Positions 6,874 to 14,987 of a DNA stretch of 42,192 nt are shown piece after piece. Each line of letters opens with the position of its first letter. The stretch's first letter is position 1. Source of the stretch: Spirochaetales bacterium (GTDB lineage: Bacteria; Spirochaetota; Spirochaetia; DSM-2461); contig JAQQAM010000250.1 in assembly GCA_028532905.1 (NCBI GenBank), forward strand, positions 1-42,192, written 5' to 3'. The notes beneath the pieces were generated by a model. That model was not told the origin of the DNA and did not search any database. It worked only from the letters and a program-made list of their open reading frames with translations. The position numbers and the translations under genes are program-made.

Positions 6874-7854
6874 ATGAAACAGACATTATCCAGGGAGCAG
6901 AGAGAGAAGATCCTTCTATACGGCAGAGAACACGGTATAAGTGAAGCCTGCCGGAAATTCTCAGTTTCCAGAACCATATACTACAGATGGAAAAAGCGCT
7001 TTGAAAATGAAGGTCATGAAGGACTGAAAGATAGAATCAGAAACTTTGTTCCTGTCAATAAAATCAAGCAGGAGATTGAAGAGAGACTCTTTGAAAAAGT
7101 GGCGGAACATCCGGATTACGGGCCCCTGAGCCTCAAATGGCTTCTGGAAGATGAACATATATATATCAGTGCCAGCGGTGTTTATAATATCCTTGTACGC
7201 CATGGATTAAATAAAAGACCGGAACGAGAAAAGTTCGCCAGAAGATACAGGAAAACCAGGCCGATCCCCCGGGGATTTGAACCGCGCCATGGAGAACTCT
7301 GGCTCTGCTGGACAGATATCAGAAAGAATCTTATGGAAGACAAAATCTTATATCAGTACTCCATCCTGGATGTGTCCAGCGGCGTTTCCTGCTCCAGACT
7401 CTACAATGATAATGACACGGCTCATGCTTTGGATCTGCTTGTAGGGCTGGCAGTCCCCATGGGAAAAGAACTTTTAATGAAACCGGCCACAATCATAACA
7501 CCGGATGACAGAATCTACAGATCCGTCAAGTCAAAAGAGAAACATCCTTATATGAATACATTGAAGCAAATGGGTGTGACTCAGTTGAAATGGGATATTG
7601 ATTTTAAAGATTTCAAGGAACTTTCAGAAGATTTCAGTACAAGAAGTCTTGAATATCTGATCAGCAACAGCACAGATGCCGGCAGTGTGAATGACTTAAG
7701 GTCACTTCTTCAGGATTTTCTGAGAGAGTTCAACCTGAAAACAGCCCTGACCTGTGGTCCCGGCAAGGGTTCAACACCTCTGGATAATGTGCGCAGGATC
7801 AGTGATCAGAAAATCACACTGCCCTTGTGGGCGTATCTGGACAGGAAGTATTGA
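6874..7854 (+). CDS. IS481/IS3-like transposase-derived HTH-integrase-fold protein
   Basis: A 326-residue protein built like an IS481-type transposase: an N-terminal helix-turn-helix (SEACRKFSVSRTIYYRWKKR), a second helical region typical of HTH_29/32, then an RNase-H-like core. Candidate DDE residues are the Asp of WTDIR, the Asp of ITPDDRIYRS (matching the usual LTDNGxxYRS), and the Glu of SEDFSTRSLEYL (matching VERFHRTL). The usual NG before the Glu and the DNG triad are replaced, and the C-terminus diverges, so it may be a domesticated relative. No terminal inverted repeats or target duplication flank it. The start is uncertain: ATG at 6874 is used, TTG at 6841 is possible. Its stop overlaps the next start (TGATG). 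Confidence 0.66.
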   Translation: MKQTLSREQREKILLYGREHGISEACRKFSVSRTIYYRWKKRFENEGHEGLKDRIRNFVPVNKIKQEIEERLFEKVAEHPDYGPLSLKWLLEDEHIYISASGVYNILVRHGLNKRPEREKFARRYRKTRPIPRGFEPRHGELWLCWTDIRKNLMEDKILYQYSILDVSSGVSCSRLYNDNDTAHALDLLVGLAVPMGKELLMKPATIITPDDRIYRSVKSKEKHPYMNTLKQMGVTQLKWDIDFKDFKELSEDFSTRSLEYLISNSTDAGSVNDLRSLLQDFLREFNLKTALTCGPGKGSTPLDNVRRISDQKITLPLWAYLDRKY

Positions 7855-9074
7855 TGAATAATCATAAAATAGCCGTCGTAGGAGCAGGATTCTCAGGCTT
7901 GCTGACAGCCTACGAACTTCAGAAACAGGGCGCCGAAGTAACAGTTTATGAGCAGGATGACCGTCCCGGCGGCCAGTGTTTTACATTAAATGCAGCCGGA
8001 AGCCGTATTGAAATGGGATGTGTGTTCGGAACTTCAGAAGCTTTTCAGAATCTTTGTGATGAACTTCAAATAAACACCCGCAGAGAGTATTTTTACAGAC
8101 AGTATATTGATTCTCAGGGACAGAAGATTCCCCTTCTGGATGACTCTTCCATTGCGGAATTCAAGGAGCAGTACCAGAGACTGCCCTCGGTTCTCTCAGA
8201 ATACAGAGACTGTCTGAATACACCGGGCTTCCATACTATCCCTGATGATCTGAAGACCGATTTCACCAGCTGGTGCAGATTGAAGAACCTTGCGTCTCTG
8301 ATACCCGTATATTCCGCCTTTTTCAGCTGCTACGGCTATGGAGAGCTGGATACTATACCGGCAGTTTATGTACTGAAACATCTGGATCTTGAATCCCTGG
8401 GTTATCTGGTTGAATCACGCAAAGTTCTGACATTTTCCGACGGCAGCAGCAGCCTCTGTAATGCTCTGGCCAGAGAATTGAAGGACATAAGATACGGGAA
8501 TAAAATCTCTCAACTTATTCCCCGGGAAAATCATGTTGCCCTGGAAACCGCATTCGGTACGGATGAAATCTCGAAAGTCATTCTGACTGCCCCTATGCCC
8601 GGGAAAGCTGTTGCCCAGCAGTTCTTTTCCATGTTTCTCGATTCAATACAATTAAATACGGCGAATACATTCGTTTACAGGATTTCCGACCGCGGTCTGA
8701 CAGATTCTTTTTTTATGGAAAACCGGGGTCTTGAGGGTTCAATCAGACTGATCCATATCAATACCAGTTTCCTTAAGGATAATCAGATCGTAACTGTCTA
8801 TTCCAACGGCAGTTACACCCCGATAGAATTGAATTCCATCCTGATGAAACAACTTGAGAAACTCAAAATAAAATCACCCCGTCTTATTGCGAATAAAAGC
8901 TGGCGATTTTTTCCTCATCTCCCATCAGATTCCCTGCAATCAGGCCTGTATGAAGAACTGTACAACAGACAGGGAGAGGATGGCATTTTCATCGGCCCCG
9001 GCCTGAGTTGCTGTGCCAGCCTTGATAAAATAACGGATTACAGCGATTACTTTTTAAAAACCTGGTTCAGATAA
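7854..9074 (+). CDS. FAD-dependent oxidoreductase (amine-oxidase/NAD(P)-binding-like)
   Basis: A 406-residue flavoprotein. The dinucleotide-binding motif VGAGFSGLLTAYEL begins near residue 9, followed by the ribose-binding Glu in TVYEQ and the RPGGQC motif typical of amine-oxidase-like and protoporphyrinogen-oxidase-like flavoproteins. The C-terminal IFIGPGLSCCASLD segment fits the closing FAD contact. The substrate is unknown. The ATG at 7854 shares its A with the TGA of the upstream gene, and AGGAAG lies 5-6 nt before it, so the two are translationally coupled. An upstream start at 7827 is possible but less likely. Confidence 0.8.
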   Translation: MNNHKIAVVGAGFSGLLTAYELQKQGAEVTVYEQDDRPGGQCFTLNAAGSRIEMGCVFGTSEAFQNLCDELQINTRREYFYRQYIDSQGQKIPLLDDSSIAEFKEQYQRLPSVLSEYRDCLNTPGFHTIPDDLKTDFTSWCRLKNLASLIPVYSAFFSCYGYGELDTIPAVYVLKHLDLESLGYLVESRKVLTFSDGSSSLCNALARELKDIRYGNKISQLIPRENHVALETAFGTDEISKVILTAPMPGKAVAQQFFSMFLDSIQLNTANTFVYRISDRGLTDSFFMENRGLEGSIRLIHINTSFLKDNQIVTVYSNGSYTPIELNSILMKQLEKLKIKSPRLIANKSWRFFPHLPSDSLQSGLYEELYNRQGEDGIFIGPGLSCCASLDKITDYSDYFLKTWFR

Positions 9075-9096
9075 AAAAATATTTAATCAGGCATGG

Positions 9097-9215
9097 TGTT
9101 TACACTGGTACTTCCTACAATAGCTGACTAACTCATTTTAATCAGACTTTTAATGATTATTTTAATAATCTGTCTTTGAACAAATGGTTGTTCAACAGGA
9201 TGCAAAGTGTAAACA
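9097..9215 (+). other. nested inverted repeats: candidate structured leader RNA or small repeat element
   Basis: A 10-bp perfect outer pair (TGTTTACACT 9097-9106 with AGTGTAAACA 9206-9215) encloses three further inverted repeats: CTGACTAA/TTAATCAG (9124-9131/9138-9145, one mismatch, 6-nt loop), GATTATT/AATAATC (9155-9170), and TTGAACAA/TTGTTCAA (9176-9195, perfect, 4-nt loop). As RNA this would be a four-helix cloverleaf. It lies between the FAD oxidoreductase and the nickel-type permease. It could be a metal-responsive leader, a cluster of protein operators, or a small element with TGT...ACA ends. The pairings are directly visible; the role is inference. Confidence 0.45.
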
Positions 9216-9357
9216 GCAAGCATAAACACTTAAAAAAGCTTTAATCGGTATTTTTTTACCCATTGTCCATTTTGAGGTTCATCATTTAAAGTCGTTAAAA
9301 CGGTTAATTGATATTAATTTATTCAAATATTCAGACCCCAAAAATAAGGATCAATAA

Positions 9358-10005
9358 ATGGAACAGAATTTCTTAATACTTCTTATATCCACATTCACTG
9401 TGGGATGTATTCATACCCTACTCGGTCCGGATCATTACCTCCCGTTTATAGCATTGAGCAAGTCCAATAACTGGTCCTACAAAAAGACCATCGGTATTAC
9501 CACAGCCTGCGGTATAGGCCATATTGCTTCAGGACTCATTCTGGGTCTTCTAGCCGTATCCGTTGGAACCATACTGACAAGACTGGATTTTATCGAAACT
9601 GTACGCGGTGAAATTGCCGCCTGGTCTCTGACGGTTTTCGGTTTTATCTATTGTATTTGGGGCATTAAAAATGCTTTTCGGAAAAATGATTCATCTCAGC
9701 ATTCCCATGGTCATGAAAAAGACTCAAGTCCCTGGATTCTGTTTCTGATATTTGTTTTCGGCCCCTGTGAGCCCCTAATTCCCCTGATTATTTATCCCGC
9801 CGTCACAAACTCACTGTTTCATACTACTGCAGTAGTGCTTGTGTTCGGGCTCAGTACTCTCATCTGCATGTTTCTGACTGTAACAGTTTCATTCTACGGT
9901 CTGAAAAAACTGATCCGTTTCCCCTTTATGGAACGCTTCGGAAATGCCATGGCAGGGGGAGTCATCGGCAGCTGCGGTCTTGCCATGGCTGTTTTTGGTC
10001 TCTAG
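9358..10005 (+). CDS. nickel/cobalt-type permease (NiCoT/UreH-SafE-like)
   Basis: A 215-residue integral membrane protein with about six hydrophobic segments. The first contains HTLLGPDHYLPF, the His-x(n)-DH signature of NiCoT and UreH-like nickel permeases. A second His-containing helix has GIGHIASGL, and FGPCEPLIP lies in the fourth. A His-rich loop (HSHGHEK, near 117-123) between helices may bind metal on the cytoplasmic side. Its position just before hypB supports nickel uptake for metallocentre assembly. ATG at 9358 is preceded by AAGGA. It begins a likely operon running to hypA. Confidence 0.78.
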   Translation: MEQNFLILLISTFTVGCIHTLLGPDHYLPFIALSKSNNWSYKKTIGITTACGIGHIASGLILGLLAVSVGTILTRLDFIETVRGEIAAWSLTVFGFIYCIWGIKNAFRKNDSSQHSHGHEKDSSPWILFLIFVFGPCEPLIPLIIYPAVTNSLFHTTAVVLVFGLSTLICMFLTVTVSFYGLKKLIRFPFMERFGNAMAGGVIGSCGLAMAVFGL

Positions 10006-10026
10006 ATCTGAAATAAAGGATTAATC

Positions 10027-10701
10027 ATGAAAGATTTTAAGGTAATTGAAATAAAAAAAAGTGTGTATGAGAGCAATGACAAAGAAGCAGAATCTCTCAG
10101 ACAGGAACTCAAGGATCAGGAACTTTTTCTTCTGAACCTTATGTCCTCACCCGGATCCGGTAAAACATCGACTGTACTGAGAACCATAGAGGCTCTTGGT
10201 GAGGAGATGCGAATAGGTGTTCTGGAAGCGGATCTTGATTCCAGTGTCGATGCCGGTACAGTTGCCGAAACAGGAACTAAGGTGATCCAGCTTCACTCAG
10301 GGGGCATGTGCCATCTGGATGCTCTGATGACCCGTGAAGGAATTGAAGCACTGGGGACAGAAGGCCTTGATCTGGCCATTCTCGAGAATATAGGGAATCT
10401 GATCTGTACAGCGGAATATGATACCGGGGCAGCCAAAAATGCCATGATCCTCAGTGTTCCTGAAGGTCACGACAAACCACTGAAATATCCCATTATGTTT
10501 TCCATGGTGGATGTACTGCTGGTAAATAAGATTGATGCCATGGATTTCTTTGATTTTGATATGTCAAAACTGACGGAATATGTAACCAGGCTGAACAAGG
10601 ACATCAAGATCATTCCCATATCAGCCAAAACGGGAGAAGGCATCGACCAATGGGCTGACTGGCTCAGAAACGAAGTAAAAAACTGGAAACAGAATAAATA
10701 A
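10027..10701 (+). CDS. hypB: hydrogenase/nickel-enzyme maturation GTPase HypB
   Basis: A 224-residue SIMIBI-class GTPase that, with HypA, inserts nickel into [NiFe] hydrogenase and sometimes other nickel enzymes. The P-loop SSPGSGKTS is at about 40-48, the family metal-site motif HSGGMCHLDA near 90-100 (Cys-His metal ligands in the G domain), switch regions with ENIGNLIC, G4 motif LVNKIDAMD and G5 ISAKTGEG. The N-terminal CxxCGC nickel site of E. coli HypB and the His-rich tract of others are both absent, so this is the minimal form. It lies 21 nt after the permease. Identification is secure. Confidence 0.95.
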   Translation: MKDFKVIEIKKSVYESNDKEAESLRQELKDQELFLLNLMSSPGSGKTSTVLRTIEALGEEMRIGVLEADLDSSVDAGTVAETGTKVIQLHSGGMCHLDALMTREGIEALGTEGLDLAILENIGNLICTAEYDTGAAKNAMILSVPEGHDKPLKYPIMFSMVDVLLVNKIDAMDFFDFDMSKLTEYVTRLNKDIKIIPISAKTGEGIDQWADWLRNEVKNWKQNK

Positions 10702-10732
10702 CTTAAAAACTGTTCAATAAAGGAGATAACAT

Positions 10733-13423
10733 ATGGCACGGGAACTGTTGCTGGATCTGGCAAATAAAATCAGCAGAACGAAAAGAGGTTCAAAGCTGGA
10801 AATCAAAGAGGATTATCCTGAATATAAGATTCTTGAACCCATCATGACAGATGAGATGGCTGAAGTGGCTCTCTGTCTGGAGCTGAGAAAGCCTATGTCT
10901 GCCGAAGAGATTGCCCCTCTTTGCGGCAAATCAGTAGAAAAAACTGCGGAGCTTCTCTGGGAAGTAGCCGACTGCGGTATGGCTTTTGTCAACGAGATTG
11001 ACGGTGTGGATAAATACTGGTGCGAAATATGGGTTCCCGGTCATATGGAGATGATCGTCAACCATAAGGAAAATGTAAAAAAGTACCCTGAAATTGCCAG
11101 GGCTTTTGATGCCTACGGCCTGAGAAAGGGTCCAATGGGAGTCGGTAAATTCCCTGTGGGACATGGGCCGATGAGAGTCATCCCCATCGAACAGTCCATC
11201 GACGGAAACACCCGTTCAGCCTCATTTGAAGAGGTATCCCGGTATCTGAATGAAAATACTATATTCTCCCTGTCAGACTGTGCCTGCCGAACCTCCAGAG
11301 AAGCCATGGGAGAAGGCTGCGGTCACCTGAAAGAGGATATCTGTATCCAGATGGGTCATGCCGCTGAATACTATATCCGCACAGGGAGAGCCAAAGAGAT
11401 AACAAGAGAAGAAGCTATGGAAGTGATCAGGAAGGCCGAAGAAAACGGACTTATGCACTCCATTCCCAACCTGGACGGACCCGGCAACACACATGCCATC
11501 TGCAACTGCTGCGGCTGCGGCTGTTTCAATATGAGGCTGGCCAATCACTGGTCCAACCCGGATATGGCCCGTTCCAACTATGTATCAAAAGTGGATGCCG
11601 AAAAATGCGTTGCCTGTGGGGAATGTGTTGAAAACTGTCCCACCAACTCCCTGACCATCGGTCAGAAAATCTGTACAGAAAATATTTCATCTCCTCAGAA
11701 GTGGGATGATTTTCAGACAACTGAATGGACAGAAGATCAGTGGAATCCTGATTACAGAACAAACCGCAAGGTTGTCAGCGATGAGGGCAGCAGTCCCTGT
11801 AAGGCGGAATGTCCGGCACACATCGGTATCCAGGGGTATATAAAACTGGCCTCCCAGGGCCGTTATGACGAAGCACTGGAACTGATCAAACAGGAAAATC
11901 CCTTCCCTGCTGTGTGTGGAAGAATCTGTCCCCGCAAATGTGAATCAGCCTGTACCAGAGGGGATATTGACGATCCCATTGCCATTGATGATATCAAGAA
12001 ATTCATCGCAGAAAAGGAACTGAAGGGAGAGAACCGGTTTATCCCCCGGATCAAACATGACTACGGTAAAAAAATAGCCGTAGTAGGTGCCGGTCCTGCA
12101 GGACTGTCCTGCGCATATTACCTTGCGGTTGACGGCTATAAGGTAACTGTTTTTGAAAAACAGAATGCCCTGGGCGGTATGATGACCCTGGGGATTCCCT
12201 CTTTCAGACTGGAAAAGAATGTGGTCAATGCAGAAATCGATATCCTCAAGGATCTGGGAGTAACATTTAAAACCGGTGTAGAAGTCGGAACAGATGTCAC
12301 ACTGAAGGATCTTCGCTCTCAGGGGTATGAGGCCTTTTTCCTGGCCATCGGGGCTCAGGGGGGCCGTAAACTGAATATCCCTGGAGAAGGCGCAGAAGGT
12401 GTTATCAGCGGTGTTGATTTTCTCTGTAATGTAAACCTCGGAACAGCCGGTGAGCTTAAGGGAAAAACGGTTGTTATCGGAGGAGGCAATGTCGCTATTG
12501 ATGTTGCCAGAACAGCCGTAAGGGTTGGATCGGACAAGGTTCATATGTTCTGCCTGGAAAACAGAGAATCCATGCCGGCTCTGGAAGAGGAAGTGGAAGA
12601 AGCTCTTGCTGAAGAGATAGGTATTAACAACTCCTGGGGGCCTGTACAGATTTTGACTGACAATGGCAGAGTGAAAGCCGTTGAGTTCAGAAAGTGTCTT
12701 TCTGTTCTGGATGACAAGGGAAGATTCAATCCTGTTTATGATGATAAAGACACCATGATTGTAGAAGCGGATCATGTTCTTATTTCCGTTGGACAGTCCA
12801 TTGAATGGGGAACAATTCTGGATGACAGCAAGGTGGAACTGAATCCCAATAATTCAGTGAAAGCAGACGCCAAAACCCTGCAGACCGCTGAAGAAGATAT
12901 TTTTGCCGGTGGAGATGCTCTTACCGGTCCCCGCTTTGCCATTGACGCCATCGCTCTGGGTAAAGAAGCTGCTATATCCATACACCGATTTGTCCAGCCC
13001 GGTCAGGATCTTCTGCTGGGACGGACGATCAGAGATTACCGCTCCTTTGACAAAGAAAGTTTGAATCTGGAAGGTTATGACAGAATTCCCCGTGAGACGA
13101 CTGCTCATGTATCTGCAGCAGCATCCAGAGAGACCTTCCAGGACCTCAGAGGAACTTTTACGGAAGAACAGATTAAAAAAGAAACGGAACGCTGCCTGGG
13201 ATGCGGCGCTACAGTGACCGATGAGTTCATGTGTCTGGGATGCGGAGTCTGTACAACCAAATGCAAGTTTGATGCTATCTCACTGGTCAGGAAATATGAT
13301 GAAGAGGGAGTGGATCTGGCAGATCTCAAACCCAAAGTCATAAAATATGTGATCAAACGTCAGCTGAAAATCGCAGCCAATAAACCGATTAAGGCCATCA
13401 GTAAAGCCTTTTCGAGAGTTTAA
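10733..13423 (+). CDS. multidomain Fe-S/FAD/NAD(P) oxidoreductase (GltD/NfnB-like core)
   Basis: An 896-residue cytosolic redox protein. The N-terminal ~340 residues hold a winged-helix-like start, a cysteine region SDCACRTS near 180, an ICNCCGCGCF cluster near 255-265, and a ferredoxin motif CVACGECVENCP near 292-303. The core resembles GltD/Nfn large subunits: CKAECPAHIGIQGYI plus CGRICPRKCE (Fe-S sites), FAD motif VVGAGPAGLSCAYYLA near 449, NAD(P) motif VIGGGNVAIDVART near 580 and the GGDALTGP FAD contact. A C-terminal cysteine set CLGCG...CLGCGVCTTKC (820-845) adds another cluster. It likely moves electrons between NAD(P)H and a ferredoxin-like partner. Its placement between hypB and hypA is odd and suggests a role tied to a nickel enzyme. 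Confidence 0.88.
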   Translation: MARELLLDLANKISRTKRGSKLEIKEDYPEYKILEPIMTDEMAEVALCLELRKPMSAEEIAPLCGKSVEKTAELLWEVADCGMAFVNEIDGVDKYWCEIWVPGHMEMIVNHKENVKKYPEIARAFDAYGLRKGPMGVGKFPVGHGPMRVIPIEQSIDGNTRSASFEEVSRYLNENTIFSLSDCACRTSREAMGEGCGHLKEDICIQMGHAAEYYIRTGRAKEITREEAMEVIRKAEENGLMHSIPNLDGPGNTHAICNCCGCGCFNMRLANHWSNPDMARSNYVSKVDAEKCVACGECVENCPTNSLTIGQKICTENISSPQKWDDFQTTEWTEDQWNPDYRTNRKVVSDEGSSPCKAECPAHIGIQGYIKLASQGRYDEALELIKQENPFPAVCGRICPRKCESACTRGDIDDPIAIDDIKKFIAEKELKGENRFIPRIKHDYGKKIAVVGAGPAGLSCAYYLAVDGYKVTVFEKQNALGGMMTLGIPSFRLEKNVVNAEIDILKDLGVTFKTGVEVGTDVTLKDLRSQGYEAFFLAIGAQGGRKLNIPGEGAEGVISGVDFLCNVNLGTAGELKGKTVVIGGGNVAIDVARTAVRVGSDKVHMFCLENRESMPALEEEVEEALAEEIGINNSWGPVQILTDNGRVKAVEFRKCLSVLDDKGRFNPVYDDKDTMIVEADHVLISVGQSIEWGTILDDSKVELNPNNSVKADAKTLQTAEEDIFAGGDALTGPRFAIDAIALGKEAAISIHRFVQPGQDLLLGRTIRDYRSFDKESLNLEGYDRIPRETTAHVSAAASRETFQDLRGTFTEEQIKKETERCLGCGATVTDEFMCLGCGVCTTKCKFDAISLVRKYDEEGVDLADLKPKVIKYVIKRQLKIAANKPIKAISKAFSRV

Positions 13424-13442
13424 TACTAAAAGGGAGTCATCA

Positions 13443-13784
13443 TTGCACGAACTGGGCGTCGTAATAGACATTGTAAAAAAAGTGGAAAACATCGCCAGAG
13501 CCAACTCTCTGACAACTATAGATACCCTGGTTCTGCAAATCGGAGAACTTTCGTCGATGATTCCCCGGTATGTTGAATCCTGCTATCCCGCTGCTGTGGA
13601 CGGTACGATGCTGGAAGCAACGAATCTGCGGATAGAAATACTCCCGGCCGCTGCCCGCTGCAGAAAGTGCAGCTCTGTCTTCAATCCGTTGAAACATGAG
13701 GACTGCTGTCCCCACTGCTCAGCGAAGGAAGCGGATATAACAGCCGGTCGGGAGTTTATGATAAAGGAAATTATTGCCTGCTGA
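13443..13784 (+). CDS. hypA: hydrogenase nickel-incorporation protein HypA
   Basis: A 113-residue nickel chaperone that works with HypB. The start is TTG: the protein must begin M-H-E-L because His2 is the conserved nickel ligand, and TTG at 13443 gives exactly that; AGGGAG lies 7 nt or so upstream. The zinc site is formed by CRKC (73-76) and CPHC (89-92). Length and layout match the family. It sits 19 nt behind the large oxidoreductase and is separated from hypB by it. The other hydrogenase maturation genes (hypC-F) are not in the window. Confidence 0.94.
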   Translation: MHELGVVIDIVKKVENIARANSLTTIDTLVLQIGELSSMIPRYVESCYPAAVDGTMLEATNLRIEILPAAARCRKCSSVFNPLKHEDCCPHCSAKEADITAGREFMIKEIIAC

Positions 13785-13839
13785 CCCTGTTCATACAGCC
13801 AGTACAGCAATGAAATAAGATAAAAACAAGGAAAGTAAA

Positions 13840-14772
13840 ATGGGATTGTATGCTGTTCCCGGCATTGAAAGCTGGGGAATCATGATTTTTGTATTGTTTG
13901 CCCTTATGGCATTCAATGAACTGGGGAGAACGACCCGATGGGGCGGCATTGCACTGTTTCTGGTGGTACCTGTGGTTCTCACTATTTTTGTATGGCCCGT
14001 TACAGCGGCTCCCGGAAATGAGTATGGTACAGGGACCTGGTTCAACTGGGTCAAAACCTACTCGGCCCTTGCCGGTTGCCTGGGCTTTATGGCTATCCGT
14101 TTTATACCCGGATTGTCAAAGAAAAAATGGGCTCTGACCTTCCCTCCCCTGATTCTGGCATTGAATATTCTAGAAGCCTGCATTCGTGATTTCGAAGTAT
14201 ACGGCTACGGACTGTTTCAGGGGGGATATGTGGATCACCTGTGGACCATATCCGGTCCCTGGAACATCATAAACGGAATAGCCGGACTCCTGAATATTCT
14301 GACGATCTGCGGGTGGGCGGGAATTGTTATCTCAAAAGACAGCAGTAAGGATATGATCTGGCCGGATATGATCTGGGCCTGGATTATAGCCTACGATCTC
14401 TGGAACTTTTCCTATACCTACAACTGTATTTCCGATCATTCATTCTACTGCGGACTGACTCTGCTGCTTGCCAGCACAATTCCCTCGTTCTGGATTAAAA
14501 AAGGAGCCTGGCTTCAGCACAGAGCCCATACCCTGGCATTCTGGATTATGTTTATTATGACCGTACCCCAGTTTGCCGACAGAATTGCTCCGGTTCCCAC
14601 AACCCACAATCCACGGGCATTCCTGATTGTAAGTATTCTGTCTCTGGCCTCAAATCTGGCTCTCTTCATCTATCAGATGGTCAGAATCAGACAAAAAAAG
14701 CTCCATCCTCTCAAGGATGAAGTCTATGTAGACACGGAAGCCTATAAAAAAACTCTGAAAGTTTACGCCTGA
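13840..14772 (+). CDS. polytopic membrane protein, DUF5692-like
   Basis: A 310-residue integral membrane protein with about eight hydrophobic helices and many conserved-looking Trp residues (WGIMIF, FNWVKTYS, WNIINGIAG, WPDMIWAWIIAYDLWNFSYTYNCI, HTLAFWIMF). It resembles the DUF5692 family, whose function is unknown. GGAAAGTAAA precedes the ATG. It lies 55 nt after hypA on the same strand and may belong to the nickel operon or be separately transcribed; no terminator is visible between them. Confidence 0.7.
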   Translation: MGLYAVPGIESWGIMIFVLFALMAFNELGRTTRWGGIALFLVVPVVLTIFVWPVTAAPGNEYGTGTWFNWVKTYSALAGCLGFMAIRFIPGLSKKKWALTFPPLILALNILEACIRDFEVYGYGLFQGGYVDHLWTISGPWNIINGIAGLLNILTICGWAGIVISKDSSKDMIWPDMIWAWIIAYDLWNFSYTYNCISDHSFYCGLTLLLASTIPSFWIKKGAWLQHRAHTLAFWIMFIMTVPQFADRIAPVPTTHNPRAFLIVSILSLASNLALFIYQMVRIRQKKLHPLKDEVYVDTEAYKKTLKVYA

Positions 14773-14883: not shown

Positions 14884-14892
14884 TTGATCATT

Positions 14893-14977
14893 CATCAGGG
14901 GTGCTGGTTGTACATGACCGGCTGAGATCAAACCCTTAGAACCTGATCTGAGTAATTTCAGCGCAGGAAGTATGCAA
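14893..14977 (+). promoter_or_regulatory. TPP riboswitch (THI element)
   Basis: The conserved aptamer blocks are present in order: AGGGGTGC (14897-14904), GGCTGAGATCA (14930-14940), ACCCTTAGAACCTGATCTG (14932 onward into 14950), then the 3' half GTAATTTCAGCGCAGGAAG ending at 14970. These are the P2-P5 core strands that bind the pyrimidine and pyrophosphate of thiamine pyrophosphate. P1 is weakly paired, so outer limits are approximate. It stands directly before seven thiamine salvage and uptake genes and should turn them off when TPP is plentiful. Confidence 0.95.
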
Positions 14978-14987
14978 GCGGAAGACC

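Follow-up and report, generated by a model that had tools for sequence, protein, structure and literature searches.

An IsrA-type oxidoreductase operon adjoining a polyunsaturated fatty-acid isomerase homologue in a Spirochaetales bacterium: a possible conjugated-diene reduction locus

The stretch of DNA analysed here, referred to as the window, comprises 42,192 nucleotides of contig JAQQAM010000250.1 from a Spirochaetales bacterium, whose genome (GCA_028532905.1) is a 4.98-Mb draft, 95% complete. Five open reading frames lie on the + strand between 9358 and 14772, with successive gaps of 21, 31, 19, and 55 bp. An earlier note on this DNA had described five co-directional genes with short gaps, and all of them were found at the positions it gave. 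Two genes further upstream (6874-9074), absent from that note, carry the best functional clue. The features of the locus are as follows.

6874..7854, + strand: candidate transposase-derived HTH protein (IS481/IS3-like), with HTH Pfam matches and an IS481 match below the cut-off
7854..9074, + strand: PAI-like polyunsaturated fatty-acid isomerase homologue, 406 aa, FAD, amine-oxidase fold, matching PDB 2b9w over its full length
9075..9357, + strand: AT-rich intergenic region, possible promoter/operator, with blocks in common with a related locus
9358..10005, + strand: UreH/NicO-like membrane protein, possible nickel permease (PF13386, 32 bits; HTLLGPDH motif)
10027..10701, + strand: HypB GTPase, nickel chaperone (TIGR00073, 221 bits; cut-off 121)
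10733..13423, + strand: IsrA-family Fe-S/FAD/NAD(P) oxidoreductase, putative conjugated-diene reductase, 896 aa, with domains, invariant Cys residues, and architecture as in IsrA
13443..13784, + strand: HypA nickel metallochaperone, TTG start (PF01155, 99 bits; cut-off 28.9; MHE start and two C-x2-C pairs)
13840..14772, + strand: DUF5692 membrane protein (PF18948, 442 bits)

A TPP riboswitch at 14887-14987 (RF00059, 63 bits), preceding a thiamine salvage/transport operon (ThiM, a ThiD-like protein, and more), marks the right-hand boundary of the cluster. The HypB, HypA, and DUF5692-like identities given earlier were supported by the profile scores; the HypA score against TIGR00100 is just under its cut-off. 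For the proposed nickel permease, the UreH/NicO-type motif and the PF13386 match were both seen; the transport of nickel itself can only be presumed.

The 896-aa protein had been read as a multi-cluster oxidoreductase with a GltD/Nfn core, which agrees with the Pfam domains found: Fer4 (286-307), Fer4_20 (354-431), and Pyr_redox_2 (447-741). The core matches Nfn, GltD, and dihydropyrimidine dehydrogenase (DPD). Residues ~345-755, with the Fer4_20 and FAD/NAD(P) domains, correspond to the N-terminal module of NfnB/GltD/DPD; in contrast to these enzymes, the IsrA-type protein has an extra N-terminal Cys-rich domain, an extra C-terminal Cys-rich stretch, and linkage to HypA and HypB. Its homologues align over residues 1-896 with 59-85% identity in relatives, and also N-terminally in 80 named genomes. 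A search of plasmids gave one distant match (37%). Residues ~20-120 (10733-11100) weakly resemble a winged-helix regulator (PDB 2d1h, E 0.07), which is odd in an oxidoreductase.

IsrA is the putative isoprene reductase of Acetobacterium wieringae. Its operon encodes the oxidoreductase, two HypA, HypB, and a ferredoxin; the operon is upregulated by isoprene, and the genome has no [NiFe] hydrogenase (PMC10134865). The protein of the window almost certainly belongs to this family (clade 9). In the proposal of the IsrA authors, nickel is bound by a Cys-rich region that contains two CxC motifs, C180/C182 and C254/C256 (PMC10134865). Both motifs are present here as C183/C185 and C257/C259, at a constant offset of +3, and HypA and HypB adjoin the gene without a hydrogenase. 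The C-terminal Fe-S motif (the C821-C844 set) is invariant among 87 homologues. As judged by published architecture and motifs rather than by sequence alignment, the locus resembles the isr operon of A. wieringae ISORED-2 and strain Y (PMC10134865, PMC9765523) in many features: an oxidoreductase of ~900 aa, N-terminal CxC motifs, a ferredoxin motif near residue 290, a DPD-type Fe-S domain, an FAD/NAD(P) domain, a C-terminal Fe-S motif, adjoining HypA and HypB, and no [NiFe] hydrogenase in the genome. It differs in having one HypA and no extra ferredoxin gene, and in the addition of the NicO-like and DUF5692 genes and, upstream, of the genes for the PAI-like isomerase and the HTH protein paired with it.

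The gene neighbourhoods are similar across the family. Among 988 published neighbourhoods of IsrA homologues, HypA was reported at 0.73, HypB at 0.56, DUF5692 at 0.40, and TetR at 0.21 (PMC10134865). Our comparison set contains 93 isrA loci, namely the window, relatives of its genome, and 80 loci from named genomes, with three records included twice; near isrA, HypB was found in 77, HypA in 73, DUF5692 in 33, and the PAI pair in 18. The usual order is partner-PAI-hypB-isrA-(DUF5692)-hypA, and in some loci a SAM methyltransferase gene comes next. Conservation of the five-gene order, which the earlier note had looked to in relatives, is thus partial: the core hypB-isrA-hypA is kept, whereas DUF5692 is present in the minority of loci counted above and UreH/NicO-like homologues adjoin the operon in only 4 of the 93. 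CbiM/CbiQ metal-uptake genes lie beside several IsrA loci, and such neighbours fit a metal client. The SAM methyltransferase (PF08241), which weakly resembles CMAS, is encoded downstream of the IsrA operon at L037:12085-12705 and again in 10 further loci.

The arrangement of HypA and HypB around a large oxidoreductase, the anomaly that first drew attention to the locus, is therefore already published (PMC10134865) and is ordinary once IsrA is known. The absence of a hydrogenase near HypA and HypB holds genome-wide: in the 95%-complete genome, the profile search gave no HypD, and the best match to the [NiFe] hydrogenase large subunit (PF00374) scored 22.8 bits, under its cut-off. This match was rejected as a hydrogenase, as the gene is NuoD-like and stands beside NuoB/NuoC-like genes. 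Neither HypD nor the large subunit, both expected with a [NiFe] hydrogenase maturation locus, was found in the genome. Likewise, no Prismane/CODH and no urease were found in it. The earlier note had named, as a contrary outcome, a separate hydrogenase locus with its own hypA and hypB and an unconserved gene order; HypA is present as a single copy, and the genome has no other hypA locus.

Alignment of 87 full-length homologues showed that nine N-terminal Cys residues outside the ferredoxin motif (C183, C185, C196, C204, C257, C259, C260, C262, and C264) are invariant in all 87, and that each of H198, H242, and H254 is missing from no more than one. The published model of the IsrA nickel site has six cysteines (PMC10134865). 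The first ~280 residues gave no Pfam, NCBIfam, or PDB family match apart from the ferredoxin motif that follows. By analogy, the C-N-C-C-G-C-G-C stretch might recall the Cys-Gly-Cys nickel ligand of acetyl-CoA synthase. These residues, and the linkage to HypA and HypB across phyla, favour the oxidoreductase itself as the nickel client rather than as a redox partner, and the protein probably contains nickel. The presence of HypA and HypB without a hydrogenase is then explained, because the oxidoreductase is of the IsrA family and is itself the likely client. Of the earlier proposals, a nickel client other than a hydrogenase is in line with the family literature and the genome-wide absences; the role of the oxidoreductase as a mere partner is not favoured.

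HypA and HypB might instead serve another nickel protein, such as a LarA-like racemase or some other enzyme, with the oxidoreductase a nickel-free Nfn-like NAD(P)H:ferredoxin enzyme. A LarA-like gene is indeed present elsewhere in the genome, and the core domains match those of Nfn, GltD, and DPD. However, LarA has its own LarBCE maturation system, and the N-terminal 280 residues with their nine invariant Cys are absent from Nfn/GltD. HypA and HypB also adjoin isrA across phyla, and of the proteins that responded to isoprene, IsrA was reported to be the sole redox protein (PMC10134865). This explanation is considered quite improbable, and the oxidoreductase remains our preferred client.

The two upstream genes add a second enzyme to the locus. 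The PAI-like protein matches PDB 2b9w, the polyunsaturated fatty-acid isomerase of P. acnes, over residues 4-401 of 406 against 7-419 of 424 (E 7e-26). This is its sole full-length match in PDB; the next matches cover part of the N-terminal flavin-binding region. A homologue from a clostridial locus matches 2b9w over its full length with E 3e-63. The window copy is thus like the P. acnes enzyme in full-length homology and FAD-binding fold, but it is distant, and its gene has a reductase operon on one side and the HTH gene on the other. We take Arg88, Phe168, and Phe193 of 2b9w to be active-site residues. Arg88 is kept in the window copy and in nearly all homologues, whereas Tyr and Leu replace Phe168 and Phe193, respectively, in the window copy. 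This copy is also divergent from the clostridial ones (27-30% identity). Given the divergence and the two replacements, its substrate may differ.

The HTH gene is closely tied to the PAI-like gene. Its open reading frame opens at a TTG (6841), and the ATG at 6874 agrees with the homologue in locus L032. The ATG of the PAI-like gene overlaps the stop codon of this preceding gene (TGATG). Homologues of the HTH gene were observed in 17 other loci (such as L032, L042, and L049), and in 18 of 18 cases the gene lies immediately before a PAI-like gene, with a spacing of -31 to +18 bp. No DDE triad is conserved among these homologues. The possibility that the gene is a stray insertion sequence, raised by the IS481 match, was rejected in view of its constant PAI partner and lost DDE triad. 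The HTH protein is thus a candidate domesticated transposase, perhaps a regulator, which may be translationally coupled to the isomerase. The intergenic region downstream (9075-9357) has the blocks GTTTACAC, TGTAAA, and TCGGTATTTTTTTACC in common with locus L032 of the related genome G004; these are possible operator sites.

The 18 loci with the PAI pair are from Clostridia, Halanaerobiales, and Spirochaetota, with identities to the window isomerase down to 27%. Culturable carriers of the cluster include Alkaliphilus peptidifermentans and Tissierella pigra. Whole-genome searches of 50 IsrA-bearing genomes found PAI in 15; the best copy was near isrA in all 15, and only one extra copy was identified, by a profile that was built from linked copies but with which unlinked ones would still have appeared. 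Chance placement within 10 kb is expected at ~0.5% per genome. Among 393 Spirochaetota genomes, 31 have IsrA. Operon-type PAI is present in two of the 393, both IsrA-positive, and the association is significant (p 0.006), resting on these two genomes, one of which is the window's own. At a lax cut-off, PAI-like genes showed no association with IsrA in the same 393 genomes (p 0.21).

The isomerase and the nickel operon might be merely neighbours, with no shared pathway, and the IsrA operon might act on an unspecified substrate. A 283-bp gap separates the PAI-like gene from the NicO-like gene. Most IsrA loci have no PAI (it is absent from 60 of the 78 with enough upstream flank), and PAI lies downstream in L085 and is divergent in L042. 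Such an explanation has to account for the adjacency of the pair to isrA in 18 diverged loci, and for the 15 of 15 PAI-bearing genomes with a copy near isrA against the low chance expectation. On the IsrA tree, the PAI label requires 10 changes; the pairing is therefore not one frozen ancestral block, but has been gained or lost repeatedly. Such repeated gain or loss speaks for a function, and mere neighbourhood seems improbable.

Based on these sequence comparisons, we lean towards a cluster that combines an IsrA-type operon for the reduction of conjugated dienes with a polyunsaturated fatty-acid isomerase. In the first step, by homology, the PAI-like FAD enzyme would shift a double bond of a methylene-interrupted fatty acid, converting for example linoleate to a conjugated diene. 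In the second step, electrons from NAD(P)H might pass through FAD and the [4Fe-4S] chain to the N-terminal Cys/His-rich site of the IsrA-type enzyme, where the conjugated diene would be reduced to a monoene. HypB and HypA would load nickel into this site, and the UreH/NicO-like protein might import the nickel. The purpose might be detoxification of unsaturated fatty acids and/or electron disposal.

Reduction of isoprene/butadiene is the only phenotype tied to the IsrA family in the literature surveyed (PMC10134865). The substrates of the reductase might be isoprenoids (isoprene, terpenes, polyprenyl chains) or other small dienes, in which case the PAI-like enzyme might conjugate those compounds rather than fatty acids. 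The only experimentally linked IsrA member is isoprene-induced, and its strains reduce isoprene or 1,3-butadiene; the IsrA authors also suggest terpenes as substrates (PMC10134865), and the divergence of the window isomerase would be compatible with this. However, a fatty-acid isomerase is the PDB entry that the partner enzyme matches best, the genes annotated beside the operon include no recognisable terpene gene, and genes of fatty-acid metabolism flank other copies. An oleate hydratase gene immediately precedes hypB in L045, another is found ~7 kb away from isrA in L071, and oleate hydratase was also noted at the IsrA homologue of A. woodii (PMC10134865). In Clostridium puniceum (L105), the genes downstream of hypB-isrA-hypA encode FabH, a FabK-like protein (Pfam NMO), FabF, AccC, and an AccD-like protein. 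Co-occurrence of oleate hydratase with IsrA in the 393 Spirochaetota genomes was not significant (p 0.14). The isoprenoid explanation is regarded as unlikely, and a conjugated fatty acid is, on balance, the favoured substrate of the IsrA-type enzyme. More tentatively, the locus might be a complete two-step operon for biohydrogenation of polyunsaturated fatty acids, with the reductase a new class of Ni-Fe-S enzyme hydrogenating unactivated C=C bonds.

Rumen bacteria convert linoleate to CLA and then to vaccenate. A sequence for the Butyrivibrio CLA reductase was reportedly given by Fukuda in 2007, and this enzyme is said to be smaller than the IsrA-type protein. The CLA (rumenate) reductase of Butyrivibrio fibrisolvens reduces a conjugated diene to a trans monoene with NADH after an isomerase, which is the kind of step that the IsrA-type enzyme would catalyse. 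The likeness is by reaction only; no homology is claimed, and the two need not be the same enzyme. In 2015 it was noted that KEGG, COG, and Pfam did not include the CLA reductase, even though its sequence had been published (PMC4478896). If the locus is indeed a two-step operon with a Ni-Fe-S reductase, a gene could be assigned to the reduction step in the hydrogenation of fats by microbes, and the short list of nickel enzymes would lengthen. The reductase of fatty-acid biohydrogenation matters for rumen and gut lipid chemistry, for which a candidate gene would be of use. Anaerobes widely carry IsrA homologues, and the isomerase partner offers a concrete, testable class of substrates, the polyunsaturated fatty acids. 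The IsrA paper mentions neither an isomerase nor linoleic acid (PMC10134865). A link between IsrA and a fatty-acid isomerase was not found in the literature searched, and may be known elsewhere; it seems to be the new part of this analysis, and is worth testing.

Further IsrA-type genes were observed in other settings. In the related genome G004, a further isrA-like gene (L033:8727-11411, 60% identity) is accompanied by a distant DUF5692 gene and has neither hypA nor hypB next to it. IsrA operons are also present in the marine gammaproteobacteria Shewanella, Moritella, Vibrio, Ferrimonas, and Hahella (L066, L067, L070, L072, L088, L089, L109, L113, and L122). On the tree, the gammaproteobacterial copies cluster tightly, close to those of spirochaetes.
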